Origin: Capitulum mitella
Taxonomy: Eukaryota; Arthropoda; Thecostraca; Pollicipedomorpha; Pollicipedidae
Assembly (NCBI GenBank): GCA_030062745.1
Contig: CP099839.1
Span: 4,263,115 to 4,327,114, forward strand
Direction of reading: 5' to 3'
DNA: 64,000 nt
The notes under the pieces were generated by a model. The model saw only the letters and a list, made by a program, of their open reading frames with translations, did not search any database and was not told the origin of the DNA. This document shows positions 52 through 64,000 of the stretch, piece after piece. The position numbers and the translations under genes were made by a program. Position 1 is the stretch's first letter. Each line of letters begins with the position of its first letter.

Positions 52-12996
<12,945 letters not shown>

Positions 12997-13936: not shown

Positions 13937-15460
13937 TATTTTTCGCTCCTTATCACCAGTTTTGTTGTATTTTTTCACTGCAGAATGACTGGCCCTTTTC
14001 AGATATGGACTGAACTGGTGACGCATCTCCTTCAGGCCAAAAAAACTAAATACAGGCAGTGATTTGAAGTCCTCTACCGACTGCTGTCTGGTACAGTCTG
14101 CAAGCCAGTGACAATGTTGGAAGTTAAATGCCTACATAACTTGCTGTTACCAGACATGGTTTCAAAAGGCTCCTCGCATACACTGTTGACTACCAAAGGC
14201 ATACCATACCAATGGCATGGACATAGCACCACCAACTCATAAACAATAGCAAGAATATTAGGGCTATATTGGCAACATTAAAAGTGCCATGATATATGCC
14301 GATCCCCCTCCCCTCGTTTCTTCGAGTTTTCTGTCTATGATTCTTCTCGTTATGTGATTCATCTCGCGGATTTAATGCTGATGGTATGACAGTAGGCATG
14401 CCAAATTTGCTGACGCAAGTGCCTGCTTCTTGCATACATGGACTGCTAAGGGAAGATGGGTACAGGCGTTCCCTGGTCGACTCTTTAGTAAGCAGGTAAA
14501 TTGTCATGGCCTGAAGGAGAGTTTTTATCCCACTTTTTACTTCATGGCGCCTTCGCACGCGTGAAACGAGAGGGCCGAAATCAAATGAGAGATGAGAATA
14601 ACGGTCGCCTGAATGTGATCTATAAGCAGTTATTCGCCGTTTCTAGGCGATGCCCCACCGGCGAGGGATTAGGGTACCACGGAGGTCAGGTTGGAGCCAC
14701 GGGCCTATGCCAGGCAATGGCGAAGGGAGTGATGGTTTATTTTCTCAGGGTAGAACGTCATGACCCTTTTGTAAAACAATCTACTTTCAGATTTCTAAAC
14801 AGTTGGATTAAACTGTGGAATGGTACGAGGCTTGTAGAGTCTTCGTTTGTCACAATAGTGAATAAATATTAACATCTTTACGCACAAACGAGCGGATATT
14901 ACGAGACACCAACGCCCAAATGACGTCTGTGGCTGCCAAATCTGCCGGATTGTGCCGGCTAATTTGACAGTTTTACCGAACCGTATTTGGGGATGACGCT
15001 CGTGTGAGTAGTGGGAGGTGCGATGTTGTTACGTGTAGAATTTACACGTAATACTTCCAGTGGGAAGGAAAGTTAGGCAAGTATGTAGGTTAGGCGCTGC
15101 GCATCATATGGACTCGTCTCGATGCTTTGTTCCACTAATCTGGAGACTTGGTTGGTGTTTATATCTCAACTTGTAAGGCCCACTGGGACGCTAAAAGTTA
15201 AAATTGAGCCCTGAGTGCATGATGAGCCTAGACAAGTTTATATAAACTTATTGGGCAGTTTTACAGTGGCAATCAAATAACCTTTTTACTAACAGCAAAT
15301 CATTATGAAGATGCTATTGTTTATTGTTCAACACTGCTAACATGGTGTAAGGCTTGTTTGCAATTCATTTTTTGGCTACTGCAAAGATTTGCATGCCATA
15401 AATTTGCAACATTCTTCTGTATAACTACCACCATGACAGGGGCATGAAAGTTCCTCTGCT

Positions 15461-15570
15461 GTTGGGGGAAGGGTGAAGAAGCAATTTGGGTCAGTGCTTT
15501 TCAGTCAATGCTCAAAAGGCTAATGTTAGATTTAAAAAGTTAGAGGTTGCAAACCCCTTGCCCCCACTTC
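15461..15570 (+). repeat. Dispersed repeat, copy A
   Basis: About 110 bp similar to 60548-60660; shared blocks include TTTGGGTCA, CTTTTCAGTCAA and TTTAAAAAGTT, ending in a C-rich run. Where the other copy has CG this one often has TG. Confidence 0.75.
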
Positions 15571-18500
15571 CTGCATGCTGACCATCACCACTACAGAGAA
15601 TATTTTATGTTGCTGTGGTATCCAAGAATGCTTTCATTTCTCAAATAATAACAATAAAACCATAATTAAGACTGAGCTTAATACTTTATATGGGTGTGTA
15701 TGTTTATACATGGGCAGGCTGAGGTCACTTTACAGGGTCAGGTCAAAAGCCAAAACTTAGTTTCATAGTAATGATTTTGGTGCTGTTTCCTCAGATGTCA
15801 AACCCAGAATATATATAGCATACAAGGGTGTCCTCTGCTTGTGTACTAAGTGTCAGGTTGATATCAGGCTGGGTCATGGAGCTATGACCTAAAATGTCAG
15901 TGCTTGTACCCTGTATCATAGCAGGTGTAAAGTGGAATTTTGGAAATAGAGTGTATTCAAATGATTTAAAATGTTTTCAAGTGATACAGATGCACTCAAG
16001 ATTACTCTGTGATCATTGTGTGATTGATTCTGTGATCATTGTGATCAAATGTGACTCAGATCATTGGAGGTCATTTAAGGCCATTGGTCATAAGTTGGCC
16101 TGATCAGCATGTGACCATGATTTTTTCTTCTTTTCCATGCTCCTGGCACCACCTATGCTAATGTTGTACACTGTCATATGATTTGTGCCTCTTCAGCATA
16201 ACAGGACCAGTAAAAGCCAAAAAAGTGCTTTTAACTTTTTTGTTAATTCAGCTTTTTTACAAGTAATTTACCCATTTTTGAAACCCTGTGAATGCCTCTG
16301 CATTTTCTCTAAATTTTAAATGTATGGGCTAGTGGTAAATGTCCCACCCATAATCTCTTGATTCATGCCAATTTCATAAAAATTGGTGCATAAACAACAG
16401 AGTTACTAGTCCAGAAATATTCCCCTTCTTCACTTTTCTCTCCCCTGTATCCATTCTTTTAATAGTTTTCAAACCTCCATTTTATCAAAATGTGGCTTAC
16501 ATCATGGCAAATCCATTGCCATTTGTTGCAGTGAAATCAAATGAGTAGTTCTCAAGATCTTGGGGAATCCACTTCCCTCCGCCGTGAATTGGCCATACCG
16601 TCTGGCCCTCTGGCAATAGGGTTAAGGCTCACCCTGGGCATACTGTTTGCCAGTTGTTTCATCCCAACCTGAAGTCCATTTTGGACCCACATAAAACAAG
16701 AGAAGCTGGTTTGTGCAGCTTGTATTGTCACTGTCATGTTCACAATGTTCCAAAGCCACTTGAAAGATAGCCAGATCATTCACCTCTCATCACATTGGAA
16801 AGTCATCAAGAGGTTATGAGACATTTGAGAAGATCCATGTCATGTTCTCAAGATGTGGTGTCTTGTTGAGGGAGCAACAGGGTAGTTTGCACAAAAGGCT
16901 TCTGAAGTACTGAACATTCTTTTGGGAATGCCACTAATCTCCATTACTGGGCATGATCCGGTGCTAGAATGGATCTCAAAACATATGAAATTTGATATTC
17001 CCTGGAATGGCAAAATTTATGTTCCTGCTTTAGGTTGTTGTAGAAATATAATGAGATATCTACATCAGGAGCAGATGCTGTCTCATTTGATGATGAGGAC
17101 CCAGCTACTGGCATGCCATGGGGTATTATTTTTTTATTCCTGAATTCAGTTAGCTGGAGAATCTGTTATGCTGTCTTGATGCATCTGTGGCAGCCTGTCC
17201 AGATTACATTCATTGTGTGGTTGGTGCTACTTGACTTGAGTGGGATGTCACCCTGGCCATGGTCAAACATAGGGGGCATCAGAGGGTGCGTGAAAAGAAC
17301 CCGCAGCACCCTCGGGCATACTGTCTGGAGCAGACATGCTGCCGATAAGGGCTCATTTGACAACAGGCATTGTGCGTGGCTGGCCGCGTTTTTGCGGTTC
17401 AGGGTGCTGTGTCATGTTTCTGGTTGCACTGCCATCAACATCAAATGGCCAGAGTTCAGTTATGGAACAGGATGCACACAACCAGAGTAACAGTTTTCCA
17501 TAGAAGGCTGATATGGTGCTTGTACAAGCACCAGGTCACAGACTGGTGCTATTACAAGACAAAGGTATTTAACCCTGCAGCAGTTGCAGCTGATGCTTTA
17601 TGTTCGTTTTGGGCCTTCAAAAAATGTCCCATCAGCCGCAGTTTGCAACAAGAGAAGTACACGACGAAGATTGAGCTCAGGCATATGATGGCGTTTTAAG
17701 GTATGTTGTTGAGAAAAAATCACTGAACTCAGGCATATGATTGTGTATTAAGGTATGTCATGGAATAATCAGATCTCTAGTATCTTGTATATCCCTCATC
17801 ATGCAATGGCTAGCTCCATCATGAACATTCTTGGCAAGTCACAACTGGAAGAGTGGGTCAGTTGCACGAAAGGTCCTGTTGTTGGAACTTGATGCTAAGT
17901 TGCTCAAATGCACCAGCAGCAGCTAAAATTCTACAGTTGCATTGTTTATAGCAGAATGGCGAATAGTGATTAGGGATTGGACACTTTCGGACCAAACTGC
18001 CATATTTGGCGGAATGGGGAGGGGCACCAAGACACCGTGCCCCTTCCCCATCCCCCTTTCTTAAATGGCAAAATTTAATATTAACTTTATGGCATTGCAT
18101 GAGAAGAAATGTCTTGAAAAGTAACTGGTGCCCTCTTTCCCCCCGCTGGAACGTGTCCCGCCTCTGCAGCAAACTGTCATGTTTGTAGTCGCGTTTTTTA
18201 TACAATATTTAGAGCTTGTTGGACTGGAAAACTGGGGGGTCCATAGGCTGGTTAAAAGGATTTTAAAATTTACATGGTATAATGCAGTTATTTGATGCCC
18301 CGGATTTTACAGCTGTATAAAAACCAAGAGCACATGCAAACTCATTGAATCCGTCACACAAGGGACAATATTAGGCTAAGTACTGATTCGATGACTGCAG
18401 CTGGTTGGACAGATCAATGGCATTCTCTTCATTCCAGAGTTAATCTCGAATTTCCCGTAATTGTTTCTTTTTCGTAATCAGGCGTGGTGGTGGTTACATG

Positions 18501-18713
18501 TGCACATCTTTTGCAGGTCGTATGCAAGCTGATTTGTTGCATTGATCAAGGACAATAAAGCTCTGGATCAACGCGAATGGTTATGTCTTTGCGGTTGGGA
18601 AGAGGACGACGGTTCGGAAGCCATGATGTAAATACGAATCGTTTTGAATACTCTTGCTGTTGAATGGTACGTAACGCCTTTACGGCAGAAGCCTGTTGTG
18701 TGCTAATGCGAAG

Positions 18714-20345
18714 ATGAGCCCTGTGAGTGCGGATGAAGCTCGTGCACCCCACAGCAGTGAGCCAAAGCGGCCCGCGATGGAAGCCAAACCACCGCCCGTC
18801 TCTCAGCACCTGGGCGTCGACATCGGCCGCGTGTCGGCGCTGGAGTCGGTGATTTACTGGGGCTGCTGGACGTTCGGGTGCCTGTACTCGACGTACCGGC
18901 TGTACCGCGTGATCCAGCGGCACCCGGACGCCCTGGACGTCTACAGCGCGCCGGGCTGGATTGCCGGCCTGAGCGTCGACAGGTGTGACGACGAGTTGGA
19001 GGTGCTGATCAGGGGCCAGCTGCCGGTGTACGCTGCCTTCATGACGATCCACCTGGTGGTGAGCCATTTCCTGCGGAGCCTGGCCATGTTCAAGGTGCTG
19101 CCGCTGTTCCACTTCCTGCTGTCGGCCTGCTACCTGTGCTTCTCTGTGGGTTTGCGCCGGTACCTGCTGCTGCTGGGCGCGGCGCTGCTCTTCTTCGCCG
19201 TGTCGCGGACGCGCAGCCGGCGGCTGTGCTGGCTGCTGGTGGTGGCGGCGCTGCTGACGCACGGTCGGCTGCTGCTGGCCGCCGTCGGCGCCGACGTCAC
19301 CACCGACGACGAGAACCGGTCCTACCTGGTGACAGCCGTGCAGATGTGGAACCTGTGCCGGGCGGCCATGTTCTGCTGCGACCAGGCCGAGCGGCCGCCG
19401 GCCATGGCGCACCACGACAACCTGGTCAGCTACCTGGGCTTCATGTTCTACGGTCCGGTGCTGGCCGGGCCGCTGCTGGCTCACGCCGACTACCTGGACT
19501 CGCTGTCGGCCGCGGCCACGGCCGGGCCGGGCCGGCCGCGCCTGCGCCGCCTGCTGACCACCCTGCTGCAGCTGGCCGGCTGGCTGTTCGTCGTCGAGCT
19601 CTCCAACCACCTGATCCACTACCACGCGCTGCGGTACTCGCCCGAGGACGTGGAACGGCTCTTCGGCCGCTGGGAGCTGGCCGGCCTCAATTACTGGGCC
19701 GGCCAGTACTTCCACGTCAAGTACGTCGTCTGCTACGGCATCCCGTGCGCGCTGGCCGCCTTCGAGGGCGTGCGCACGCCGCTGCAGCCGCGCTGCGTCG
19801 CCTGGATCGCCAGCTACTCGGACATGTGGAAGTACTTCGACCACGGCCTGTACCGCTTCATGCGCCGGCACATCTACGGCCCGCTGACGGGCGAGCGGCC
19901 GTCGACGCTGCGGCGCACGCTCGCCTCCGTGTTCGTGTTCACGTTCGTGTTCCTCTGGCACGGTCTGATGCCGCACTTGCTGGTGTGGTCGGCGGCCAAC
20001 TTCCTGTGCATCTCGTTGGAGCGGCTGGGGGAGCACGTGGCGGCCAGCCGGCGCTGCCGCGAGTGGCGGCGCGTGGTCGGGCCCGGCCTGCGGCGCCGCT
20101 GCCACGGCCTGCTGGCGGCGCCGCTCTTCCTGGTCTCGCTCGTCTCGCAGGTGGGCTTCCTTACCAACAGCGGCCCGCTCGGCTGGCTGGCCATCGGCGA
20201 GGGCCTGGCGCCGGCCACCTCGACCGACATGCTGGTCACGCTCGGCTTCATGTACTGCGGCTGCCAGGTGTCGTACGACGTCAAGCGGTGGCGCCAGCTG
20301 CGCGCCAGGCTGCCGCGGGAGCAGGACAAGCTGAAGCAGCTATAG
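18714..20345 (+). CDS. HHAT: Hedgehog acyltransferase-like MBOAT protein (HHAT/Rasp type), intronless
   Basis: Predicted 543-residue multipass ER membrane O-acyltransferase. The family palmitoylates the N-terminal cysteine of Hedgehog, needed for its signalling; substrate here is inferred. Seen: ten or so hydrophobic segments; the MBOAT block SDMWKYFDHGLYRFMRRH (from Asp370) and the catalytic histidine in FVFLWHGLMPH (His416). Retention of His argues against the inactive HHATL branch. Length is near human HHAT and fly Rasp (about 490-500) plus a short N-terminal extension. I chose ATG at 18714 (A at -3); the frame is open upstream only from non-ATG codons. The whole protein is in one exon, while neighbouring genes have 7 to 18, so a retrocopy or secondary intron loss is possible. 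The frame is intact and GC3-rich like its neighbours, so it looks functional. A GTGAGT just after the start codon (18723) could be a fortuitous donor. Confidence 0.88.
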   Translation: MSPVSADEARAPHSSEPKRPAMEAKPPPVSQHLGVDIGRVSALESVIYWGCWTFGCLYSTYRLYRVIQRHPDALDVYSAPGWIAGLSVDRCDDELEVLIRGQLPVYAAFMTIHLVVSHFLRSLAMFKVLPLFHFLLSACYLCFSVGLRRYLLLLGAALLFFAVSRTRSRRLCWLLVVAALLTHGRLLLAAVGADVTTDDENRSYLVTAVQMWNLCRAAMFCCDQAERPPAMAHHDNLVSYLGFMFYGPVLAGPLLAHADYLDSLSAAATAGPGRPRLRRLLTTLLQLAGWLFVVELSNHLIHYHALRYSPEDVERLFGRWELAGLNYWAGQYFHVKYVVCYGIPCALAAFEGVRTPLQPRCVAWIASYSDMWKYFDHGLYRFMRRHIYGPLTGERPSTLRRTLASVFVFTFVFLWHGLMPHLLVWSAANFLCISLERLGEHVAASRRCREWRRVVGPGLRRRCHGLLAAPLFLVSLVSQVGFLTNSGPLGWLAIGEGLAPATSTDMLVTLGFMYCGCQVSYDVKRWRQLRARLPREQDKLKQL

Positions 20346-26626: not shown

Positions 26627-29600
26627 AGGCTGGAGACTCGGCGACCAGGCTCGGCGTGCACTGGCGTACCTGCATGCGTGGTTACGGTGTGCAGGCGAGC
26701 GTCGAAGAACGTTTTGGATTTGGTTCATCGTTTTGGATTTGTTTTTTTCGTACGTAGAAATAATTATGCCAGGTTTTGCGAAAAGCAACGGATCTTGCTG
26801 TTTACGAGAATATACTTTGTGTTTTTTACTTGCCATGTTTTCGTGCCCTGGCGTCAAGGCTAACATATGATGCATACTATAAAGAAAACAAACTTAACAA
26901 ACCCTGTGTTAAAAAGGAATTGATGTTCTTCGATTCGTTGCGGACAAAGCATGTATCTAGGCCGCATTGAGCCTGTGGAACTTCCAGTGCCCAAAGACAT
27001 GCTATTCGGCGACCCTTTTGATTCATTTGCTGATGAACTTGTCAATTTGGGTCTTTATCTTTTGTCTTTCGCGGAAATTGGTGTTGTAAATGTTCATTCA
27101 TGTTTCGAAAAATTGGACAAGTCAGCACGGGATTGCTGCGTTGTTCTTCACGATACGTTAAACGCACACCTAGCAGTCGTTAGCCAGGAATTGCGCTACT
27201 GGGTTTTCATTGAGTTCAGAGTCCGTGTAGTGCATCGTGAAAAACAAAATGTTCCCAAACCGCATGGGCTATGAATGACTAGGTATACACGAAAGCGTTA
27301 CTGTTCATCGGTGGTGCTAGCCACGACGGCAACTACGACGGATATTGTTCATCATGAGCGATTTTATGTTATCCTCCTTTAGCTTTGGACGGAGATTTAT
27401 CCTGCTGATTGTGGATGCCCTCGTAGTGATGAAAGCCAGACGCGTTCGGAATACGAGATATCTGATTTGAGACATTTTTGGCAGCCATGGTTTTTTATCT
27501 TGCCAAAATACTTGGACAACTGAGTGAGTCTGCACTGGTTTAGAATATAGATTGCCCTTTTTCGAGAATGGTTTATATATGCACTCACAGTTTTCTTCAA
27601 ATTAAAACTTATTTATATCTTTTCAAGTTTTGCTGCATTTTTGTGCGGAGCGCAGGCTGCAGATTACCGTCATATGGTAGCCTTCCGTATCAATGACAAT
27701 TTCAGCGTCTGTGATACATCCATGAAAAGTGGCCGAGTGTTGGCTGAAATATATACTTCGGGCTTCCGTGGTATGAAAAATAACAGATCATACAACCGCA
27801 AGAAAATAACATTCAAGGTTCCGTACTTAATTTCATTTCTCGTGTGAGTGCCTCTAGACATTTGCGCTCTTCTATGTAGTACATGGAAAACGCAACACTT
27901 GTCTTTTTAATTTGGGTCAGGTGCCGAAAACCCAGCAGCATTGTCTTAAATGTTTGTGCCTGTGAAGTACCGAGAAAATATTCATATTTTCTATGGCTGC
28001 ATGATGGCATAGTCATTGGTTGAGCTGGGAGCCTGAGCCTGTAAATGTATTTTTAAATCACTGCCCCTTTCCATTGAGAGTGGGACAAAATAATTTATTT
28101 TTTGTGCTGGAGAATTCAGTATTCCATTTTTAGTTACTACCTTGGCAGGTATTTTTATTAACCCCCCTCACATAAGGGGGAGAGAACCCCATCCCCAAGG
28201 TGTTCTGATGATAACTCCTTATTGGCCCAATTGATGTGCCTGAGACTCAGGGTACCCTCTGGGGCATCCTTTCTGCAGCTTATGGTGTAAAAAAGTCATT
28301 TACATTGCCATGGTAACTAGCTGTGACATAATGAAATAATGGAAAACACATCAGTCATTTTTGTGCACATACTCAGTTGGTTGACAATAATCCCATTTTC
28401 ATCCCAGTGTAAGATGGCTGGAGTGCTCAAATGCAACAGAATGTACATCAGTGGATGTAAAGTCTGCATCAGTATACATATGTTTGGCAGGCATATGATC
28501 ACTGCCTGGATGATGGAGGGTGCAAACTGAGATCATGAGCCACTGGGTGAAGCACATTACTTTACATGTCCATAGAATTATGATAGGAAATGCCAGTAAG
28601 TATCTCAGTGTATGCATTTATTTTTTTATTCAACAAATACCTGTTTTTTATTCATTTACTTGATATAAATTTAAGAAGTACATATTTCAAAATGGTCAGT
28701 ATATTCAGATTACTTGAGCTATAAGGAGCCAAATGGTATAACTGGTGCAATTTATCTTTCAGTTCAGAGCAGCTCAGTTCAGTTTATTTGCAGATCTTTC
28801 CACTATGTGGATTGCTGTTTGATTCTAGTCATTATGGTGCAGTGCATGCTCAATAGTAATGCAGATAGAACTAGAACTACAGATAAAACTTTCATGAAAA
28901 GAGGGCAGGATGCAAAGGCCTGACTTACTCCAACATATGGAGTGGTACTGATCATGGGTTGATGAGCCTGCAATATCATGGCATGTCCAAAGTTAGATTT
29001 TATTGTTGATACTGACTGTGCTTAAACACATTTCAGTCACAATGTTTGGATAATCTGAAATAAATCTAGGTCACTGGCTTAAGATAATCTTGGATGGCCC
29101 AAAAGGACCTTGGATGACTTAAGATGACCTTAGATGAGCTAAATTGGCCTCTTGAGTCATTTGACAATGGTGTTGACCAATTATTCAGACACTACATTTG
29201 ACTTAACATGACATGGCATTTGACTTGAAATGAGAATAGAAATTTTCGTATGTGTCATTGTTTTCCATTTCCCCATGTTTATCCCAGCCCCAAGTTTTCT
29301 CCATTCCTTCACACCTTTTTCTGTTTTTCTTTTTTTGTTATTTTTGAAAGATTTCATTTGTGCACCACAAAATTCCAGTGGAAATATTCATTCCTTGATT
29401 ATTACATGTTTTGAAATGAACATCATGGTTGCACATGGTATTCCCAAATGGTCTCAGTCAATGGCCTTGGTCCTGGAATTAAGTAAATGTTCACCATTGG
29501 TGTTGAGTATGACAGCTGTGAAATACCTCAGTTGGTACATTATGGCTCAACTCAGTAATGTTGCAAACAGTGCTGTTATGAGGGGATGCAGTGCTGAATG

Positions 29601-29745
29601 AACTAAACAGCATCAATAAACCTAACTGCATTTGTAAGAGCATGTATTCAACAAGGATAGAAGGTAGCAATGCCCAAAATGACAGCAATGAACTAGGCGA
29701 TTATCTAACTTTGCTGCATTGCCATTATGGTATGTTTGTTTGCAG
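26627..29745. other. Intergenic region LRRC42 to LYR/MTRFR locus
   Basis: Nothing I can name. The first part is probably the LRRC42 3' UTR (ATTAAA at 27602). An open frame at 26951-27274 (107 codons) and one at 27641-27847 have no family features. From about 28020 to 29720 lies a CpG-depleted, TG/CA-rich block containing repeated GATGACTTA/GATGACCTTA motifs near 29080-29150; CpG returns exactly at the LYR exon. Confidence 0.5.
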
Positions 29746-30390
29746 ATGTCGGCCCCCAGTGGAGCCCAGGTGCGCCGGCTCTACCGAGACCTGCTGCGGT
29801 ACGGACAAACGCTCCAGCTCACCGACAAGGCCTACTTCTACCGACGAGTGCGCGACGAGTTTCAGAAACACCGGAACGTCCAAAACGAAAGGCGCCAGCA
29901 GTTTCTGTTTGAGGTGACTCACCTGCTTATGCCACCAAGTATGCTTAGGTGGCATACTTGGTCTGCTAGTAGCGCCACGAACAAACTGCAAGAAGCTGTT
30001 GGAATGGAAATTTGTCGGAATCGATGTTTATCATTAAGTGCGAAATGACCCATTTAACCAAGTGAGAACTAGTTGCGCATTCGCCTACATTTTTCACGTT
30101 CCAATTCCCAGTTTGCTGTCGGTTATGAAAGCATTCTGAAAAGACATTCCAAGCTTGCTGAAGTACCATTCAGGTGCATGGGATTACCGAAAGAAACTAT
30201 TTCCCAATTGAATGTGGAAGCCGTTCCCGTGTCGATGGTGGTCCCTGTTCTCCTTCACTGACGCCCTGTGTCTGCTGTGCCCGCCAGAGGGGCCGGTCGG
30301 TCCTCGCTCTGCCCTCCGCCACTGACGCCCAGTGTTTGCTGTGCCCGCCAGAAGGGCCGGTCGCTGTTGGCTCGGCGCCGGCTAGTCTGA
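29746..30390 (+). CDS. LYR-motif mitochondrial microprotein (MIEF1-MP/AltMiD51-like), upstream cistron
   Basis: Two exons, 29746-29913 and 30352-30390 (TGA 30388), give 68 residues. Seen: LYR at residues 12-14 in VRRLYRDLLRYGQTL, the aromatic-rich helix AYFYRRVRDEFQKHRN and a basic C-terminus ending KGRSLLARRRLV. Spacing and length closely follow the 70-residue human MIEF1 microprotein, which with MALSU1 and mitochondrial acyl carrier protein docks on the large mitoribosomal subunit during assembly. In vertebrates that microprotein is an upstream frame of MIEF1; here it stands upstream of an MTRFR-like frame instead. The ATG follows directly after an acceptor (TTTGCAG), so a 5' UTR exon must lie upstream. 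An earlier duplicate acceptor (exon start 30288) would change the C-terminus and frame. Other LYRM families are the alternative. Confidence 0.8.
30261..30368 (+). repeat. 64-bp tandem duplication carrying a 3' splice site
   Basis: CACTGACGCCC...TGCTGTGCCCGCCAG followed by AGGGGCCGGTCG at 30288 is repeated 64 bp later as AAGGGCCGGTCG at 30352. Both copies keep a pyrimidine-rich CCCGCCAG acceptor. The downstream copy is the one consistent with the LYR protein tail. Confidence 0.88.
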
Positions 30391-30393
30391 GCC

Positions 30394-31504
30394 ATGCTGG
30401 CGGCGATGGCGCGCGCCGCGGCCGCCGCGCTGGTCGGCCGCTCTCGGTGGACGCCGGCCTGCGCCGCGGCGCGCCGTCCGGCCGGCGGCGACGCCATCGA
30501 CTGGTCCCGGTTCCCGCGGCTGGCTGAAGACGAGCTGGAGGAGCGCTTCGTGCGCGGTAGCGGCCCCGGCGGCCAGAGCGTCAACAAGACGGCCAACTGT
30601 GTCAGCCTGAAGCACGTGCCCAGCGGTGAGTGCCGCTGCTGAGCCGCCCGCTGTGGCCCGTCGGACACCGGATGACCCGTCATGGGAGCTATATCAGCTT
30701 ACGACCTTCGAAATTGCCTTTAAGATGCGTCTGTGATGAGGTGTCTCGTCGCGTCATGAGCAGAATTAAGCGCGATCGGATGACATTTCCCTGTGTATCC
30801 GAGTGGCCGCATTTAGTCCGCAGTTAGTCTGTGAGTTAGTTATCATTTGACGTTCTTGACAGTGTCAGTTCGTACAGAAGATTTATGACGTGTATATATA
30901 TTATAATATATAGTGTATATATTATAGGTCATTACGTCCATTCGTCGTTAGCCCTAAGTTTCCCGTCAGTCGACTTGTTTGCGCTTTCGGAGGATTGTCG
31001 CGGTGCACGCAAGGATCCCATTACTGAGCACCGGGCCTGATCGAACAAACGCAACCGAAATGACAGACACACGAGAGACTCAGATGAGCGGGACATTGGG
31101 TTGGCAGATTTAAGTGCTCCGTGAGCCTTGTCGAGCCCATTCGCGTACAGTTGCACCCTCGCGTCCGTCTCACGGCACGAGTCTCCCCGGCGGCCTGCTG
31201 CGTGATTCCGCTGCGTCTCTCCGGCCGGACCGGCGGGGCTCTGACTCTGACTCTGACTCTGACCGGCCGGTCGGCAGGTCTGGTGGTCAAGTGCCACGAG
31301 TCCCGCTCGCTGGAGACGAACCGGCGCCGGGCGCGCGAGCTGCTGGCCGCCCAGCTGGACCGGGCGCTGCACGGCGAGCAGTCGGTGGCCGCCCAGCAGG
31401 AGCGCATCCGCGCCCGCCGCCAGGAGCGGCGCGACGGCCAGCGCCGCCGCCGCCACCAGCGCAAGCAGCAGTGGCGGGAGCGCGAGTCGCCGCCCGACCC
31501 CTGA
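30394..31504 (+). CDS. MTRFR: MTRFR (C12orf65)-like mitochondrial release/rescue factor, downstream cistron
   Basis: Exons 30394-30625 and 31278-31504 (TGA 31502) give 152 residues. The family rescues stalled mitochondrial ribosomes by hydrolysing peptidyl-tRNA. Seen: an Ala/Arg-rich N-terminus without acids typical of a mitochondrial presequence (residues 1-30), the GGQ loop [16 protein letters not shown] (GGQ at 59-61), the strand [19 protein letters not shown] and a long basic tail ([14 protein letters not shown]). There is no codon-recognition domain, as in MTRFR and unlike MTRF1/1L. Human MTRFR is 166 residues. The start ATG at 30394 is three bases after the TGA of the LYR frame, in the same exon and same frame, so translation needs reinitiation, leaky scanning, stop readthrough or a separate promoter. 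A second ATG at 30406 has a stronger context. No AATAAA seen before the convergent WRN stop. Confidence 0.9.
30886..30928. repeat. AT-rich palindromic tract in MTRFR intron
   Basis: Alternating TA/AT sequence (TATATATATTATAATATATA and a near copy) that can fold on itself; microsatellite-like. Confidence 0.7.
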
Positions 31505-34700: not shown

Positions 34701-37700
34701 TCTCGTAGCCGTACTTCTGCGTCTTGACCTCGGTCATGCCTTCGACGGCGGCCAGGTGGCGCAGCGTGCCCGGCCGGCGGCGTGCCAGCTCCAACAGCGT
34801 CTTGTTGCTGGCGATCATGTAGGGCATGACGCCCAGCTGGTCACTGAGCCGCGAACGCAGCGACAGCAGCTCCGAGTACAGTATTCCCTGCCGACAAAGA
34901 CAATCATGCCACCGCGGAAACACAGCAACTCCGAATACAGCATTCCCCGCCGACACGAAAGATCAGTTCACTACAGAAACAGCCAGCTCGGGCTGCTATT
35001 GGTCGGTCGGGGTCTCCTGGATGGTAGCCAGTACGTTTTCAGCCCGGTTCCCACTTTTTTCAGGTCAGGTTCGGTACTTCAGCTCGGTGTGGTCTCTTGT
35101 GGCGGCGCACGGTACATACCCGGTATTTGAGCTCGGTGGGGGTCTCCTGTGGCAGTGCGCGGTAAATACCCGGTATTTGAACTCGGTGGGGGTCTCCTGT
35201 GGCGGCGCACAGTACATATCCGGTATTTGAACTCGGTGGGGGTCTCCTGTGGCAGCGCACGGTAAATACCCGGTATTTGAGCTCGGTGGGGGTCTCCTGT
35301 GGCAGCGCACGGTAAATACTCGGTATTTGAGCTCGGTGGGGGTCTCCTGTGGCGGCGCACGGTAAATACCCGGTATCTGAGCTCGGTGGGGGTCTCCTGT
35401 GGCGGCGCACGGTACATACCCGGTATTTGAGCTCGGTGGGGGTCTCCTGTGGCGGCGCACGGTAAATACCCGGTATCTGAACTCGGTGGGGGTCTCCTGT
35501 GGCGGCGCACGGTACATACCCGGTATTTGAGCTCGGTGGGGGTCTCCTGTGGCGGCGCACGGTACATACCCGGTATCTGAACTCGGTGGGGGTCTCCTGT
35601 GGCGGCGCACGGTACATACCCGGTATTTGAGCTCGGTGGGGGTCTCCTGTGGCGGCGCACGGTAAATACCCGGTATCTGAACTCGGTGGGGGTCTCCTGT
35701 GGCGGCGCACGGTACATACTCGGTATTTGAGCTCGGTGGGGGTCTCCTGTGGCGGCGCACGGTAAATACCCGGTATCTGAACTCGGTGGGGGTCTCCTGT
35801 GGCAGCGCACGGTACATACCCGGTATTTGAGCTCGGTGGGGTCCACTGCCGGCTCCAGAGTGACGCCGCAGACGGGTCGCTCGCTGGCGAGCTCGTCCGG
35901 CAGCAGAAGACGGCGCGCGCCGCCGCTCGTCACGTCGGCGAAGTCGGCGTGGTCGGGTCCTCGCTGCGAGCGCATCTCTTCAGTGGGCACCAGGTGCAGC
36001 GGGGTGTTGCGGTCCCGCGCCCAGCTGAAACGCCAGACGGTGCGGCTGACGCGCCGCCCCAGGGGGAGCGGACGGAGCACCAGGCCGGGCCACGGTCACA
36101 CCTCGTCGGTCGGGACAGTCACACGAACTGGCGACGGTCCCGAGTGTCGACATCCAAGGCTCCGCCGCAGCGTAATCTCAACACGACCGCATGGGAACGT
36201 CCCACACGGGGAGGCGGCCGTCCAGCTCCGCGTTTTGTGGCGCCACTACCATCCCTGTGTTAACACGGATTCCTCCCCCCTCTCCAGAAACTGACGGACG
36301 TCAGGCACACACACACACAAACGTGTTCAGGCACCAGCAGCACCCTCCCCACCGTGTGACCAGACAACACATCCCCACAGGGGCCGGTGTACGCTGCACT
36401 CACGCCTTGAGGAATTCCTCTCCCTTGGGCGTGACGGCGACGGTGCTGACGAAGCTGGGCGCGCCACGGCCGCGGCCCCGCGCCGCGCCGCCCCACGCCC
36501 TCATGGCGCCGCCGCTCCGCTCGCTCAGGTACTTCTCGAACAGCAGCATCTTCCCTGGCGAGCACCGGTCGAGTCAGCGCGCATGTTGGACGAGGAACGC
36601 TCACGACAGCCTCTTGTCCTACATAAGGCTACTTTCAAAGAAAAACTCAATACCATCAATGTACAACTACGCCTAAACAGTGTTTCGTCCAACAGGTCCC
36701 CGCGGGTTTCGAAGGCAAAACTTCAGACCGCACAAGACCATGACGCTGAAGTTTCAAATAACAAGAGGCAAGGTATTAGCAAACGCTACACAACACACGA
36801 TCTTTCATAAAAACAATAGAGGTCGATAAGAGTCTTTTAGGAGAAAAAGACAATGAGAGAAAGCAAAATAATGGTTGAAGGAATCGACGGTATCCTAATA
36901 AAAATCGGAATCTGGGCCATTTGTACTATACAGCGCATCACCATTGAAAACGCCTTTGTGACCTGCAATACTTCAGCAACATGCTGTACCATTTCGCTTA
37001 CCTAGGGACTTCCAAAACGCCTCTGAAAACTCCTTTCCTGATCCGAAGCCTTCTTTCGTTTTAAGCCACTGCCAGACTTTCTTACTAGACGAGCCGCGCA
37101 GGAACAAAATCGGTGTTGACAGACCTGACCAACAAGAACACATGGTTACGAACTTCCGGACTGTATATGAAGGAGGCCCAGTGACATTTGATGGCAATGA
37201 TAGACTGATTCCCCATAAGTTGTCTTTCTCAATGAACTCTTTCGATTGGTTGCACACCTGCCTGTTTCTCACAAATTGCACCACTTTTGTTGGCAACCAA
37301 GTTCCAAGAAGGGTTCTTCCGCTTTCTGCAGGAGAAGAAATTGCGCAGTGTCCCATCAAAAGCACGAAGTGACATCTGAACTCTCGGGGCAATAATGTAA
37401 GCTTCCCCCTCCCCGGAAGCATATCCAGTGGTGACCCTCCGACCTGATCTACCTATTCCCGATCACCGGAGAGGCCCCTGGCCCGATTGGCCTGTGACTA
37501 GAGGAGCGACCCCTGACGAGACGACGGCGCCTGGTCCGAGTCGTCCCTACTGCTGGACGAGAGGACCCTGACCTGAGCGGCCTGTCACCTGACCAACGGA
37601 CCCTGACCTGAGTGGACGCTGTCACTGAGGAAACAGGCCCTGTGAGTGAGTGTCTGTGTGGGGAGGACCTTGTAGCCGAAGACGTGAACCTTGGCCTTAG

Positions 37701-40700: not shown

Positions 40701-43489
40701 CCTCCTGCGGGCGCCGGGGACGACAGTGATCACTCCCCACGTCATAAGTGGATCACAGTCAGCAGCCTAGTCTCAGCAGCATCAGTGTCATCGGGTGATA
40801 GCTGCACCACACGGTTCCAGAGCGCATTATCCACACTTACTGGCCCTTGAACTGATCACTCTCTGATTTATATGCAGACTTGTAGGTCATCAATGCAATA
40901 GTCATCTAACTGGAATCTAATCCATGACGACTGCGTAAACACCAAAAAAGCCAAATCTGAAACCCAATGCTAAGCCAAAACTAAACGCAAAACCCCTAAT
41001 GTCAAAAACGCCCACAAACTCCGCAAGAGCCAAGCGCGCGTCCGTATTCTGATAATGTTCATGAAGCACAGCACTTGATAATGCCCACGCTAAAAACGTT
41101 GGGTTACCCCATGCACAAATCTGGAGTTAGACACTGACCTATATGAAGATCTGAAGTCATGGCCCCACTGGCTGACACAGTGAGCCTCGTCAATGGCCAC
41201 CAGTGTGATGCCAACAGACGTCAGCAGCTGCGTCAGAAGCGCGACGTTTTCTATCGAACAGAAAAACGAAACTGGTTCTATGAAACGCGACACACAAGCA
41301 CGTCCCTCAGGATACAAATCGCGTGAGCCTCTTACATCAATCAATACCCCTATAAATCGCCAGTGATCATAAGACAATGTGACGGTCACTGCGTAGACTA
41401 CTTTTTCTACCACCCTCGCCGGCGAGCGCCCCACTCACCGACTATGAACTCCGGGCTGACGTAGAGGACACGGTATTTGCCCCGCACGAGACCGTCTCTG
41501 ACTTCAGCGCTGCGTGACTGGGCACTGCCCAACAGGCAGGCAGGGATCCCAGACAGCTGGAAAAGGACGCGCTAGATCAGAACGGCGCACCGCGCAAACT
41601 ATGGAGTCCGTCCAGAATGTGGACGATCTAATGCATGATTACTGCATTTCTGGATGAAGAAGACATCACTCCAGAACACACTGTCACCAGGCAATGGCGA
41701 CAGGCAAGTATCACAGTGGATATGGTGAACCATGTCCGCTGAGGATTTCACGCTTGGGTGGGGGTCAGGGTGTACAGCAACATATCGGACCCTATCAATC
41801 ATCTTCACAAAATGATATCCCGGCCAGACAACAATGTGCCACGCAAATTCCCACATCAAAAACCTAACGCAAGAAACCAACCCACCACCTAATCTTCTGA
41901 TGCCTGCTAGTAAAGCACGCAGATGTTCAAGGCGACGTCCGTCAACACAAAAATGGCATAACAGTTCTGATGGCCGCGGGTATTGGGGCAATAAAACCTT
42001 GCAATGGCGGCCGACAGACACTGTTTCAGCCACTCACCTTCAGTGCCATGACTTGATCTTCCATCAGCGAGATCAGAGGGGAGACGACCACGCTGAGGCC
42101 GTCCGTGTGCACAGCAGGGTACTGGTAACACAGGGACTTCCCCGACCCAGTCGCCATCACCGCCAGCTGGTCACATCGATCCTGCGAGAAACAGTGGCGT
42201 CCTGGCATGTTGGACCAGTTGATCATTTTTTTCTGCACCAAGCAGTCAGTGTTTATAAAACTGGAGATGCAGCTTCCGACTGATATGAGGGGACAATTCC
42301 CCCTAATTTAGGTTCCATGAAAAACATAACTGGTGCATGCATCCTTGACACATAAATACTGAAAAACATCATGCCACCATGCTTACTTGTACCTATTTCT
42401 CATACCAAATGTATGGATCTCTCCCATCTCTGCACATACACGACAGCATATGGAAGACACACAAATGCCTATGTCTAGTATTCCATGCACGCAGTAACAA
42501 GGTAGATGGGCATCACACGCGTACATGGTCCGAGCCACAAGCTGTGTTTTCATGGCAAGATGCAGAAAATAGTTCTCATGGGTGCCAAATGGCCTCAAAG
42601 GTGGTGCACCCCTAAGCCTCAATAATCAGCCATTCAGTCAGATGATAGTTTTGCAGAGAAGAGACCAATGAGCAAATCAAAGCATCTGTTTGGTATCTCC
42701 CATCAGCATTAAGATGCAGGCATTCAAAGAGTATGCTGTCAAAATGACTCCATCATGTTTTTAGTTTTGGATTTCAGTTCCAGCTCTCTTTAGAAGCTTG
42801 GTACTCATACTGTGAAGCAGATGAACAAGGAGTTGGCAGGCTTTTGAAATCACCAGACATGACCAGTTAGTTCTCCACAAGTTTTCCTTTCATACCCTAT
42901 AGGCATCAGTATGCTAACTTCTCTGCTGACAGCATTGCAAACAGTAACTACAGAGAATCTGGTGATGACAGTAATATGCAAAACAGTTGGACCACTAGGT
43001 GAATATATGCTGTCAGATCTTACATAAGCATGCAGAACATGTTATTTTTGTCACCAATGCAGTTTGTGGGACTGCTTTCTAATACCATGGTTATTTTAGC
43101 AGTTGGACCAGCTGAGAAAATAAGTTCTCTACGCACACATGAAGTATGCTGGAAGTGAATCTGGGGACCAATACTGTGACACTCTTAAAACACAAAAAGT
43201 AATGCATCTAGTGGTAATACATGACTTCTTATTAAACAAATGAAATCAGGTGGCTAAAAGCCAGATGATCAAGAATGATAGGATAAAGCTGTCAAGCCAG
43301 CATAACATAGAAATGAGAAATGACCAATGCCAGCAATTCAGTCTCTAAAAAAAAGTATTGCTTAAGACTTACATGCAAAATCCTCCATATGATCTCCCAT
43401 TGATTTTTTCTGAACTGTCCATGACCAAAGAACTTCTGCAGTGTTGCAAGGTGGCACTCATTTGGTCTTGGCACAGCACCAGAGGCCAT
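31795..43489 (-). CDS. WRN: Werner-type RecQ helicase lacking the exonuclease domain
   Basis: RecQ helicases unwind forks, recombination intermediates and G-quadruplexes. Eighteen exons join without a frame break to 1101 residues: 43489-43373, 42181-42038, 41556-41439, 41250-41139, 40704-40597, 40342-40149, 39579-39442, 39023-38888, 38484-38308, 37891-37776, 37124-37002, 36554-36404, 36024-35820, 34887-34636, 34400-34261, 33981-33839, 33034-32922, 32613-31795. Seen: motif I MATGSGKS (Lys54), DEAH at 147-150, motif [15 protein letters not shown] zinc site (C...CCDNCD, residues 356-414), WRN-specific [18 protein letters not shown] at 614-697, the tail signature [14 protein letters not shown], and KRKLPAWM near the end as in human WRN. 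These exclude BLM, RECQ1, RECQ4 and RECQ5. The start ATG at 43487-43489 has a strong GAAACCATGG context and the protein begins directly at the helicase; I see no DnaQ-like exonuclease between it and XPG. The last exon carries a Pro/Ala- and Glu/Ala-rich insert. Confidence 0.93.
33540..33870 (-). repeat. 32-bp repeats derived from the 3' end of WRN exon 16
   Basis: On the - strand the exon end GCGCAGTCCTGCGGTCAACTCAG and its GTCGGTAC donor are repeated into the intron with about 32-bp spacing (+ strand GAGTTGACCGCAGGACTGCG near 33745, 33777, 33809 and the exonic copy at 33841), followed by ever more diverged copies to about 33540. Confidence 0.85.
35074..35840 (-). repeat. 50-bp minisatellite carrying splice sites, at WRN exon 13 donor
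   Basis: The marker CGGTAT recurs every 50 bp from 35121 to 35821 (15 positions) with one decayed copy at about 35074. On the - strand each unit is a 27-nt segment (ETPTELKYR or a variant such as ETPTEFRYR) preceded by CCGCCACAG and followed by GTATGT or GTATTT, then a 23-nt spacer. The first copy is the real exon end (VDPTELKYR, 35820). All three - frames are open across the array, giving spurious long ORFs of 216-333 codons. Confidence 0.95.
37430..37790 (-). repeat. Diverged repeats of the WRN exon 10 donor region
   Basis: The + strand motif GACCTGAACGGCCCC at the exon 10 donor (37773) has relatives at about 37437, 37571, 37604 and 37728 (e.g. CCCTGACCTGAGTGG), often preceded by GAGAGGACC. 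Copies are degenerate and spacing varies from about 33 to 124 bp. Confidence 0.5.
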
Positions 43490-46400
43490 GGTTTCACCAA
43501 GTGATAGTTCAGTCATGAAAATAGACTCCTTTTTGTTGGCTGACCACAGTTACAACACAAGATTGCTGCTAGTCCTAATCACCCCCATCTCTGAAAAAGA
43601 AAGGCTGATTGAGTTATCATTCCATGATGTGTTAACAATTGTTGATCATAAATGTGCGATCACACAAACCGCTGGGCGGCTCAACTTACCTACGCTGGTC
43701 CTTAGAATAACTAAAGGAGAAGGCAAAATAACAAGGGAACAAGAGGAAGGAATAAGCCCTAAAAACAGTCCACAGTCAGTCAAAAGTCAGGGCTGGAGAA
43801 ATTATGGAAGAAGGAAAGACAAAAAGGCCAAAGAAAGGTCAAGTTCCTCTCACAAACCACTGCACCAAGCACCACCATCCACAATTCGGTAACTCCCGCT
43901 ATGAGCTCACAAGGCCAAGTGGCACCGCTCCGGAAGGTCCAGCCTGAGACCGACTCAGGCCAAGGTTGGGTCAAGGTCAGCAAATTAGAGATGAAAACCA
44001 CACCCTCCACTATGGAAAGAAACACTGGAAAGCCAAACCAAAGCTTGAACCAATCATTCCAACGACCATCCCACTCACCGTTCCGCCCCGAAACCGAAAA
44101 TTTTACTTTTATTGCACTATATGTTTCTCTAAATAGATGGACAAAACATAAAAATGTGACGCGCCTCCCCAACCCACCACTAAACTACCGCCCTTATAAG
44201 TCTAGCTTGTTGGGACGCCTGATGTTTCTACCACTTCTCGTGTGTTTTTCCACAATTGTCATGCCGGTTATCATTTTAACAATGTTATCCTGATGCTTTG
44301 TTTAGGGTGACATTAAAAATCACAGCCATGTTCAGCAAGCCTTCATAAATGCCCTTATATATTTGTATATGTAATGTATATATAATATGTATATATAATA
44401 TACATATAATATGTAATGTAAATTATATGTAAATGCCTTATAACTGCTGCCTGGCATGGAAAACAATAAAACCTGCCCAAAATCCCCAATAATACTAAAA
44501 AAATCTCCGAAACGAGAACAAGCGGGTACCCATGACGTCTTGAACCGTCACAAGTGCTATCCTTTTGTTTTCACTCAGAAATGCATTATAAATGTTCCAG
44601 TTTCACATTTCCCCAATACAGATATTTCTATCTGCCCAGAATCTGCACTCCCATGACGGCAGAAGCAAACACAAAGGAGGAAATAGTCACCACAGGATAC
44701 TGAGTTGAGCCACGGTACCACAAGCACGGTTGTTCCCGCGTTTTTCAGGAGTTCCCATCGCGTTGTGTTTGAAAATCTCACGCCAAATATGTCGTAATCT
44801 TGAAAATGCGGATCAACTGGAATGATCTCTAGCAAAGTCAGCAATCTTGCACGCTTCTCATTTTAGTGCCCAAACAAATAAATACATTTATTAACAACCC
44901 GTGATAAACGGGTTTTAATTCTCACATTCTTGTTTTGTTAAGATACAAGCTGTTCATAGATTCAATATTCTGGCAATTCAAACTGTTGACGTCATCAAAA
45001 TACCACCAGCGAAAGCAATGCATGCCGAGAGTGCACACCATGGTAAACAAACTGGGAACTTCAAGGCGAGCGCAAGGTTACGCAAGAGCGCGAGGTGCCG
45101 TGGTCCGAGGATTCTCAAGATTGGTGTACATGGTTTTGTCCTCTCGACAGTGCGGAGTGTAGAGACTCGACGTCTTTGCCCCATAGGTTTTCGGACATAG
45201 ATTTTCGGACTTTCGGCGGCAAGTTTGATACGGACAAATGGACACCGGACGCCTGAACCTAAGCGGCTTTGCGCCCTTATCCAAGCCAACGTAGCTGTGT
45301 TGACAGTATGCACTGGAAGAATCACAAGAACATCATCCAGTTTACCTGGGTGAGGATTGCTAGTGTATGCGTTGCAGGATACATATGAGTTTGTGTGAGT
45401 ATTTCATGTAAGAGGATGCAATCTATGTACCTACAGCCATCTTCCTGCTACGGTTTAAAGGATGCCTTCAGGCTCAAGAGAGCGTACTTGGCCTAGAGAA
45501 ATCCACCCATTTTGACATACCTATATGCAGCCTCAGCTTGTTTTGTTACAAAACTAACAGGTCCCTAGATTAGAAAGACTCCTTGAGTAAAACACAATGA
45601 GGGAGGGCTATGTCATTGCTGCTTGTGTCATTACTTTCCATTTGTGCATTCAATGGTGTAAGTTTGCAGTACAGTATTTATTGATCTATTTTACTGTTTT
45701 GCACAAAGAAATCAGAAGTTTTGGCATCATGTGGTTATTTGCCATCAGCACTGACCAGAAACACCTGTGATCCTATGATATATCAGGGAAAAATTGCTCT
45801 TGAAAGTTCTGTTGAATAAGGAGCATGTAAGGACATTGGAAATCAAAATGCATCAAGTGTCTAGAATTTGGCATTTTTGAGTAAAAATGTCATGATTTGG
45901 CACCAAGCATTTGCATAATAATTACCCAGAAAGTGCTTTGGCTGGGCCAGGCTGGCTGCACAGTATGATTTGTTTCTGCAGGTTGAAATAAGACTCACTT
46001 AGCATTTGGCATTGTTAACTTGATAACCTTAACCCATCCCTAATTGGGGGGCAGTTGACTGCACCCCCCCCTGAGGTTTTCTGGGATTGCGAGAGAATTA
46101 ACAAACAGAGTCACAAAACTTTGTGTACCTTTTGCTCCATCAATTTTACATCTCATGTCAAAATTGTGACCTCAGTTCAGGTCCAGTGCCTGACCTAAAC
46201 TGGGTCAAATGGGCTGATGTCAAAAAAGGTTTTGTGCCCCCCAACTTTTTGGCACAAAACAAGATATCTCAAAAATACTTTCAGGGATTAGTGATCTTGT
46301 TAGATGCAACAAATCTGCTATCTCAGATTTTTCAGAATTTTCCGGGACATTGGCCTAAGGTCAAGCCCATTTTTAAGACATGCCATCATTTTTTCAGAAA

Positions 46401-60663: not shown

Positions 60664-63160
60664 GGCCCGCTTCCCGCGCTCTTGCCCATCACAATATTGG
60701 ATTATGACTGATTTTACGCCGCAGGTTATACGTGCTATCTTGGAAAAGTTACATCAGCTGATCGAAATTTCAGCATAACCGGCGTAGTGGGGATCGAGGT
60801 CATAACTGAAACTTGGTCGATTTTACACCTGAGCCCAACAAAGTAATACATTGCCCCTCATTGTGCTTCTCATTTCAACACTTCTGATCACATAATCCCA
60901 TCTTGTTTGGGCCACGGTTTGCTGCCAGAATGGATCAGATGCTTACCTTTTTCACGCTAACGGAAGCTTGTTTTCCCACGTTTTTTTGTGTGAGTGCCCT
61001 ATTCAATCGTGTCCTATTTGCAGTTGTTGCGCGATGTAAATGAGCGTGCGCAGGTTAATGAACGCTTCATCGCATTGTGGGCGATAATAAAAGTTTCATA
61101 AACCATTTGTTTCATAAATTTATTTTCTGGAGCTTTCAGATATATTTACAGAGCAGGAATACTGAAAGTGTTCTCCGCAACACTTTTCAGTCCAACCACA
61201 ATTATTCGCTGTGTTTTAGTGCTATGAATATCTCCGCGCATGCGCATATCTTCGCAGCACTTCGGTAGAGAACGTACGAGCCTGGTTGATTCCAGTGGAG
61301 TCTGTCGTCGAGCTTTACTGAGAAGACAGCCGCCGTTCTAGGATGTTGCGGCGCGTACGCGGGCTGGGTGATTCCAGCGTGATTCGTGTGACTGGTGTTT
61401 GGCGCTGAACTACCTCGCTAGTATCAGAGTTACCGTGGTGGAAGACGGCTGTTGTTAGCCGCCGAGGCGTGCGTTCCAATCGGACATTGGTAGATTTTAT
61501 TTCCTGAACATCACGGCACATATGGGCCTAAATATTCTTATTGCCAGTGCTGTGTGCCAGACAGCCTAACTGTTTAGGTCACACCTGCAGTGCGAAGGGT
61601 AGAGACGAGAAGCCGTCTGTCTTTCAGCAATGTCCGCATGAGGTGTCCAATGGCCTAAGAAGCAGGTGAGTGTGTGAAAGGGTGATTGTGCATACCATGA
61701 TACAGTGCTAGCCAGAATTCATGCAAAGTCATTCATGTGTTTGCATTGTTCAGATATAGTCATGTCATTCAGCTAGGGGTGATACTGGAGAACTGCACCT
61801 GATGAGGGCACTTTTTTGGTGGAAAGTAGTACCATTTGAAAGAGCTTCTTCTGATCAGGCAGTGATGACTGGCACAGATTCAAGAGACTGTCATACTGCC
61901 AGATGAAATTGCAATTCCATGACAGCTAAGGATGCAGTTTGGGTGGGCTCAGAACTCAGTATGAACTGGAGTCATATGAAAATTGCTTGCTGGAAGATGA
62001 TGTGCAGTGGTTTCACAAAAAATGTGGGCCTAAGACCCCTGCCCCCCCCCCCCATTGGCTGCATCTATGATGACAGCCCATCAGGACTGCAAGGGCCCAT
62101 CAAGGCCACCTTTGATTTGTCACTACCAGTGTGCCCAGCTGATTGTACTTGAGCAGTGGTCACACAGCATTCGAAAGAAGAAAGAAAGAAGTGGCTGTGT
62201 AGTGATGAACACTTCATTCCACAGAACTGATTGTTAGGTTAGGAACTTGGGTTATTAGGCTTTTTGCATGGCCCAAGAACTATTCCAACAAGGTTATCCA
62301 TCAGAAATGTTCATTTGTGATGCACTGATCATTTCCTGTACAAAATTTTCTTGATCTTTTGGTTGAAGGTATAGTCAACACAATCCAACTTGGCATTGTC
62401 TAGGATATATTGCAGACCTGTTGGTTAAACTTAGCTTGTCTGGGTGAACTGCAAAAAGCCATCCAGAACATATTTTGGTGACATTTCAGAATGCTAGAGG
62501 CAGTAATGGGGTCATTTTCTATCATGCCATGTGTCTTTGCTAAGATCCTCATCACAACAGTAAAAACACTATAAACATGCCTTTTCAGTTCCCCTGTTTC
62601 TGTTCTGAAGTGTGGCATGCATTGCTGCCTACACTTTCTCAGTATTGTCAGATAAAGAGATCAAACAAGCTCAAATTATCTGCAGCAGAACCTAGCCTGT
62701 GGAGTATGAACCCTGGTTGAACCAGCCGCACCTGGCATGTCACATGGCTAAACCTAGCCAGCTTTGGGACATTGGTCATCTCAGTATTAGCTATGATCCA
62801 GATAACCTCAGCTCAGCTCTGAAGTTTACTGGGATGCACAAATGTTGGATATTTTTTTCACTTTCCACAGTTCAAGATTATGCACTTAAAACTTGAATCA
62901 AGGCTTATCTAACCTAACCTTGCCTACCCTCACCTTGCCTCACCTTGCCTATCCTTTAACTGACTAACTGCTACTGCTAATTACTAAAATACCAGTGTTC
63001 TTCCATAATTGAAACTTAATGCTTGTCAGCCATAGGCATTTTTGCTAATGTTTTAAGCAAGGGAGAGAGTGTGTGGACCCAGCAGCATCAATTTCTGTAA
63101 ATGTTTGCAGGCCAAGACAGGGCCCAACAACATAACTTTTCCACAAATATGGGTCTCTCA

Positions 63161-63242
63161 GTTGATTTAGTCCACTTTATTTTGAATGGCAGAAATCTGT
63201 ATGTTTTTTTGTACTTGTGAAATAAGAAATGCATGTATTCCC

Positions 63243-63290
<48 letters not shown>

Positions 63291-63427
63291 GGGTGGGCAC
63301 AATATATACATATATAGACATATATATTTATTTATTTATTTGTTTATATTTATATATGTATAAATGGGGATATGTATATATAAACATACAGATTTTTGCC
63401 AGTCAAAATAAAGTGGACTAAATCAAC
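63161..63427. repeat. Inverted repeat enclosing TA and TTTA microsatellites
   Basis: The 46-base arm 63161-63206 (starting GTTGATTTAGTCCACTTTAT) is the reverse complement of 63382-63427 at 44 of 46 positions. The 175-bp loop holds a (TA)n run at about 63247-63285 and a (TTTA)n run near 63328-63352. It could be a small foldback element or a hairpin-prone locus. Confidence 0.85.
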
Positions 63428-64000
63428 AAAGAGATATGTATATGATATAGATAGGTAGACATGAGATAGAAAGATAGATACATCATTTAGGCTTTATTAT
63501 TTTTTACTTGCTCCCTATCTGTTATCTAATGCGGCCATTCATCTTTCTTTTTTTGCCCAGCTCCCTTTAAAACTGGTGGAAAATATTGCGGTAAGGACAC
63601 CAAAATTGGGGGCCCAATCAACATGGTGGCAGGGCCCTCACAAACAAATCCAAATTGATGCCCTTAGTGAGGCCCCCCATGCAGTTCGTTTTCTACTTAA
63701 AGTTGAATTTCAGGAAGTCCTATATAGGATTCGTGGGAGCCTTGCAGATCTAATGGTACCTCTCGTCATTATTCCAGTCAGTGGAGTAGGTCAGGTGAGT
63801 TCAAATCCTGTGACCAGCTGGAGTGGTATGGAATCTGGGGTCCTTGGCTGCAATTAAATGAATCTGGATAAGTCAGAATGGTGCAAAATGCATGCCAAAT
63901 TTGAAATCGGCGCTCGAAAATACCTTAGTGGCGTTCCGAGGTTAAAAAGGGTCATCCTAGGTTAACCGAGGTCATCGACCTCGGCTGACTTCGGATGACC

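Follow-up and report, generated by a model that had tools for sequence, protein, structure and literature searches.

The DNA analysed here, a 64-kb stretch from Capitulum mitella, is referred to as the window. Between 29746 and 31504 it carries two ordered, non-overlapping conserved coding frames on the same strand, a dicistronic layout. The first encodes a small LYR protein, and the second encodes MTRFR (C12orf65/mtRF-R). Direct reading places the stop TGA of the LYR frame at 30388–30390, followed by GCC and then by the MTRFR ATG at 30394, all in one exon and in one frame. This spacing was the core of the original prediction and is borne out by the sequence reading together with the gene model. 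In the model each frame is spliced once, so that 29746–29913 and 30352–30390 code for an LYR protein of 68 residues, and 30394–30625 and 31278–31504 for an MTRFR of 152 residues. The splice sites were inferred from GT/AG signals, the reading frame and homology. The features are as follows.

29746–29913, plus strand: first coding exon of the LYR frame, 168 nt, codons 1–56, its ATG directly 3′ of a plausible acceptor (model, GC step, homology)
29914–30351, plus strand: predicted LYR intron, phase 0, 438 bp, donor GTGACT (model)
30245–30372, plus strand: 64-bp tandem duplication, two copies 83% identical, with acceptors giving exon starts at 30288 and 30352
30352–30390, plus strand: last 12 LYR codons and stop TGA at 30388–30390 (model)
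30391–30393, plus strand: GCC, separating the stop from the following start (direct reading)
30394–30625, plus strand: first coding part of MTRFR, with a presequence-like N-terminus and the GGQ motif (homology, model)
30626–31277, plus strand: predicted MTRFR intron, phase 1, donor GTGAGT (model)
31278–31504, plus strand: second coding part of MTRFR, with a basic C-terminus and stop TGA at 31502–31504 (homology, model)

The LYR ATG adjoins a plausible acceptor (TTTGCAG|ATG), the GC content rises there from about 0.39–0.40 before the ATG to 0.60 after it, and the 300 bases upstream contain 15 ATGs. A separate leader exon, spliced on from 5′ of 29746, is therefore likely. It was not located, and the Pfam scan of 40 frames gave no lead to it. 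Shortly before the LYR exon, the interval 27972–29697 holds a single CpG (at 29247) against about 62 expected. Across most of the window the CpG count is close to expectation, but similarly poor intervals lie at 15190–16580, 42531–43657 and 61635–63532; heavy local methylation or inserted repeats may be behind them.

Of the 84 stop-to-stop frames that reach 150 aa or more, 39 were scanned against Pfam, as was one frame of 69 aa. Two of these 40 frames pass the curated cut-off. One, a 556-codon plus-strand frame at 18675–20342, encodes an acyltransferase domain of the MBOAT type (E 7.7e-25), and the other is a partial kinesin motor domain at 9486–10160, also on the plus strand (E 9.3e-50). A minus-strand frame at 36976–37452 weakly resembles the RecQ-helicase RQC domain, scoring 19.8 bits against a cut-off of 23, and is possibly a convergent downstream neighbour. 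A 50-bp unit is repeated 15.4 times with 92% match at 35072–35841, and all three minus-strand frames stay open across it for at least 289 codons. There is also a short CTAACC-type repeat at 62909–62945.

Identity of the two proteins

The MTRFR frame matches the Pfam RF-1 domain over residues 43–142 of 152 with an E value of 6.6e-24, above the curated cut-off. It contains GSGPGGQ and consists of the RF-1 catalytic domain without a codon-recognition domain. C12orf65 entries match it at 2.3e-28 and 1.2e-23, and the best match under any other name is RFH at 1.4e-11; the frame is closer to C12orf65 than to ICT1, RF1, RF2 or RFH. Its first 32 residues include five arginines and no acidic residue, and this N-terminus looks like a presequence.

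The LYR frame matches Complex1_LYR (E 6.1e-13), likewise above the curated cut-off. A chance layout is excluded, because both frames match curated families above the cut-off. The best PDB match of the LYR protein is human AltMIEF1 (L0R8F8), which has 70 residues, compared with 68 here and 91 in human LYRM4. As in proteins of the AltMIEF1 type, the LYR domain is about 70 residues long and ends soon after the third helix. The C-terminal extension of LYRM4 (ISD11) past that helix is absent: the frame stops at residue 68, and the last 21 residues of LYRM4 are unmatched. Identities are 27 of 70 aligned residues with human LYRM4 versus 20 of 58 with human AltMIEF1. Our preferred reading of the LYR protein is the MIEF1 microprotein (AltMIEF1/L0R8F8), with LYRM4 a close second. 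Both families named in the original prediction stand, while its choice of AltMIEF1 within the LYR family has a close rival.

Relatives were also sought in collections of bacterial and archaeal and of viral contigs. These gave 241 and 15 pattern matches, respectively, none of which was confirmed, as expected since the family is eukaryotic.

The fly gene CG30100 and other known systems

CG30100 is a gene that we take to be the fly ortholog of MTRFR. Hayden and Bosco (2008) screened Drosophila for conserved upstream peptides and described CG30100, termed a translation release factor, as having an upstream frame of 70 aa, compared with 68 here (PMC2276209). The upstream and main frames had reported Ka/Ks values of 0.08 and 0.09, respectively. 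The two frames share one annotated transcript and ESTs, and the most distant species reported to carry the pair is Ixodes scapularis, represented by EST DN974785 (PMC2276209). The arthropod survey that the original prediction asked for was thus partly covered already in 2008. Its gene order and its proposal of a single mRNA hold on the sequence, and the CG30100 and Ixodes EST reports support an mRNA shared in arthropods. The word LYR does not occur in the main text of the 2008 paper (PMC2276209); the 70-aa fly frame probably encodes the same LYR protein. The arrangement in Capitulum mitella is probably the same conserved arthropod gene as CG30100, and hence not new. In our literature search, which covered open-licence papers, the pairing of this LYR protein with MTRFR was not found named in print.

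Several other systems resemble this locus in part. The human MIEF1 microprotein, like the protein here, is an LYR protein (70 aa) coded as an upstream frame; its downstream partner, however, is the fission factor MIEF1 rather than MTRFR (PMC5703645). Drosophila Sloth1 and Sloth2 are two small mitochondrial proteins made from one transcript, as predicted for the present pair, with a gap of 5 nt from stop to start instead of three bases, and reporters supported leaky scanning for them (PMC9681215). They are, however, paralogs that function in complex III and are unrelated to the LYR and MTRFR proteins (PMC9681215). In green-algal bicistronic genes few potential starts precede ORF 2, which fits leaky scanning (PMC11892635). 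In that different lineage the mechanism was tested in vivo, and reporters supported it (PMC11892635).

Routes to the second protein

We favour, with somewhat more belief than doubt, one dicistronic nuclear gene in which the LYR protein and MTRFR are encoded on a shared mRNA and the second frame is reached by leaky scanning. A leader exon would be spliced to 29746, giving an mRNA that carries the LYR frame and, three bases on, the MTRFR frame. Ribosomes initiating at the first ATG would make the LYR protein; for those leaking past it, the next start encountered would be that of MTRFR. We infer both the shared mRNA in Capitulum mitella and the leaky scanning, which appears the likeliest route to MTRFR; reinitiation and readthrough are weaker.

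Between the LYR and MTRFR starts the predicted mRNA has no ATG in any of the three frames. The first ATG has T at +4, and its −3 base falls in the leader exon, which was not located. The MTRFR ATG has G at −3. Another ATG in the same frame follows 12 nt later, with G at both −3 and +4. The absence of ATGs was considered as strong evidence for leaky scanning and rejected. Upon synonymous recoding, 69% of the recodings lacked ATG under the genes' own codon usage, and 5% under uniform codons. The absence is therefore permissive of leaky scanning and not diagnostic of it, because GC-rich codon use gives the same result in 69%. Dinucleotide shuffles were uninformative: because the first cistron has no AT after its start, they could only yield sequences free of ATG (mean 0.0, fraction zero 1.0). 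The title of a 2005 paper links translation of a second cistron to a first cistron without in-frame AUGs (cited in PMC4528330). According to the FlyBase curators, most fly dicistronic pairs fail the requirements of a scanning mechanism (PMC4528330), so leaky scanning is not to be assumed.

Alternative splicing into two mRNAs is a considerably less probable explanation. Inclusion of the 168-nt exon 29746–29913 would give the LYR mRNA, and its skipping, with the leader joined to 30352, a monocistronic MTRFR mRNA. The exon with the LYR ATG is a discrete unit with splice signals on both sides, and the acceptor at 30352 sits 42 nt upstream of the MTRFR ATG. FlyBase release 6.04 lists 159 dicistronic pairs, of which 45 are apparently exclusively dicistronic; in the others, one or both genes occur on monocistronic mRNAs as well (PMC4528330). 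The duplicated acceptor adds a further possible splice form. Since 64 bp is not a multiple of three, use of the upstream copy, with the exon starting at 30288, is predicted to shift the LYR frame, which would then run past the MTRFR start in a different register and give a product of 135 aa.

Reinitiation at MTRFR on the one mRNA after the LYR stop we regard as unlikely. The three-base gap places a terminating ribosome at the next start, which speaks for this route. A first frame of 68 codons is long, however, and a short gap leaves little time to regain initiation factors. Nor does the junction show unusual RNA structure: folding of a single 96-nt stretch gave a z of 0.47, and 131 of 200 shuffles folded as well or better. 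The fly (PMC9681215) and algal (PMC11892635) cases that were tested favoured leaky scanning over it. It is quite improbable that MTRFR is transcribed separately, starting at a promoter in the LYR intron, with the LYR frame carried by its own or a longer mRNA. The GC-richness of the end of that intron and of the next exon (0.69–0.76) speaks for this, but the two frames of fly CG30100 share one annotated transcript and ESTs (PMC2276209).

The LYR and MTRFR frames share one register, and beyond the TGA no stop separates them; readthrough of the TGA would yield a single fusion protein of about 222 residues, as the original prediction had allowed. A G directly after TGA is not known to make the stop leaky. 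The fusion would bury the presequence-like N-terminus of MTRFR in its interior, and the 2008 study dropped genes whose frames are fused in any annotated fly splice form, a filter that CG30100 passed (PMC2276209). Readthrough is thus not supported, and we give it very little credence. As for the remaining routes, reinitiation, which the original prediction had set beside readthrough, appears weaker, and leaky scanning, skipping of the first exon and the duplicated acceptor were absent from it.

A possible common role on the mitoribosome

PDB entry 7a5h is listed for both the human AltMIEF1 chain and human C12orf65, the respective matches of the LYR and MTRFR frames. The large subunit of the split mitoribosome that is bound by mtRF-R and MTRES1 also carries the MALSU1-L0R8F8-mtACP module, which stops the subunits from rejoining, and this split large subunit is reported to be the particle rescued by mtRF-R (PMC8786322). 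The original prediction linked the two human proteins through large-subunit binding, one in assembly and the other in rescue. The link is closer than that, as both are chains of one solved rescue particle (7a5h, PMC8786322). In the human particle the relatives of the two proteins come from different genes, whereas here both are coded at one locus.

Human and kinetoplastid relatives are reported to bind both MALSU1 and acyl carrier protein on mitoribosomes. If the LYR protein behaves like human L0R8F8, it would join these two partners in mitochondria and keep a split large subunit apart; freeing the stuck peptide from that subunit would then fall to MTRFR. We infer a functional coupling of the two proteins in Capitulum mitella. 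Human MIEF1-MP is described as a component of a mitoribosome assembly intermediate (PMC11293456), and the LYR protein may instead act in assembly alone.

It is conceivable, as a tentative reading, that arthropods have possessed this locus since ancient times as a unit of two proteins for quality control of the mitoribosome. A single mRNA would fix the ratio of LYR protein to MTRFR, and the duplicated acceptor and the skippable LYR exon could shift it. If the fly frame encodes the same LYR protein, arthropods have retained the microprotein and the rescue factor together on a single mRNA. If true, this would suggest a common job for the two proteins in clearing stalled mitoribosomes, and would offer a simple genetic handle on it in flies.
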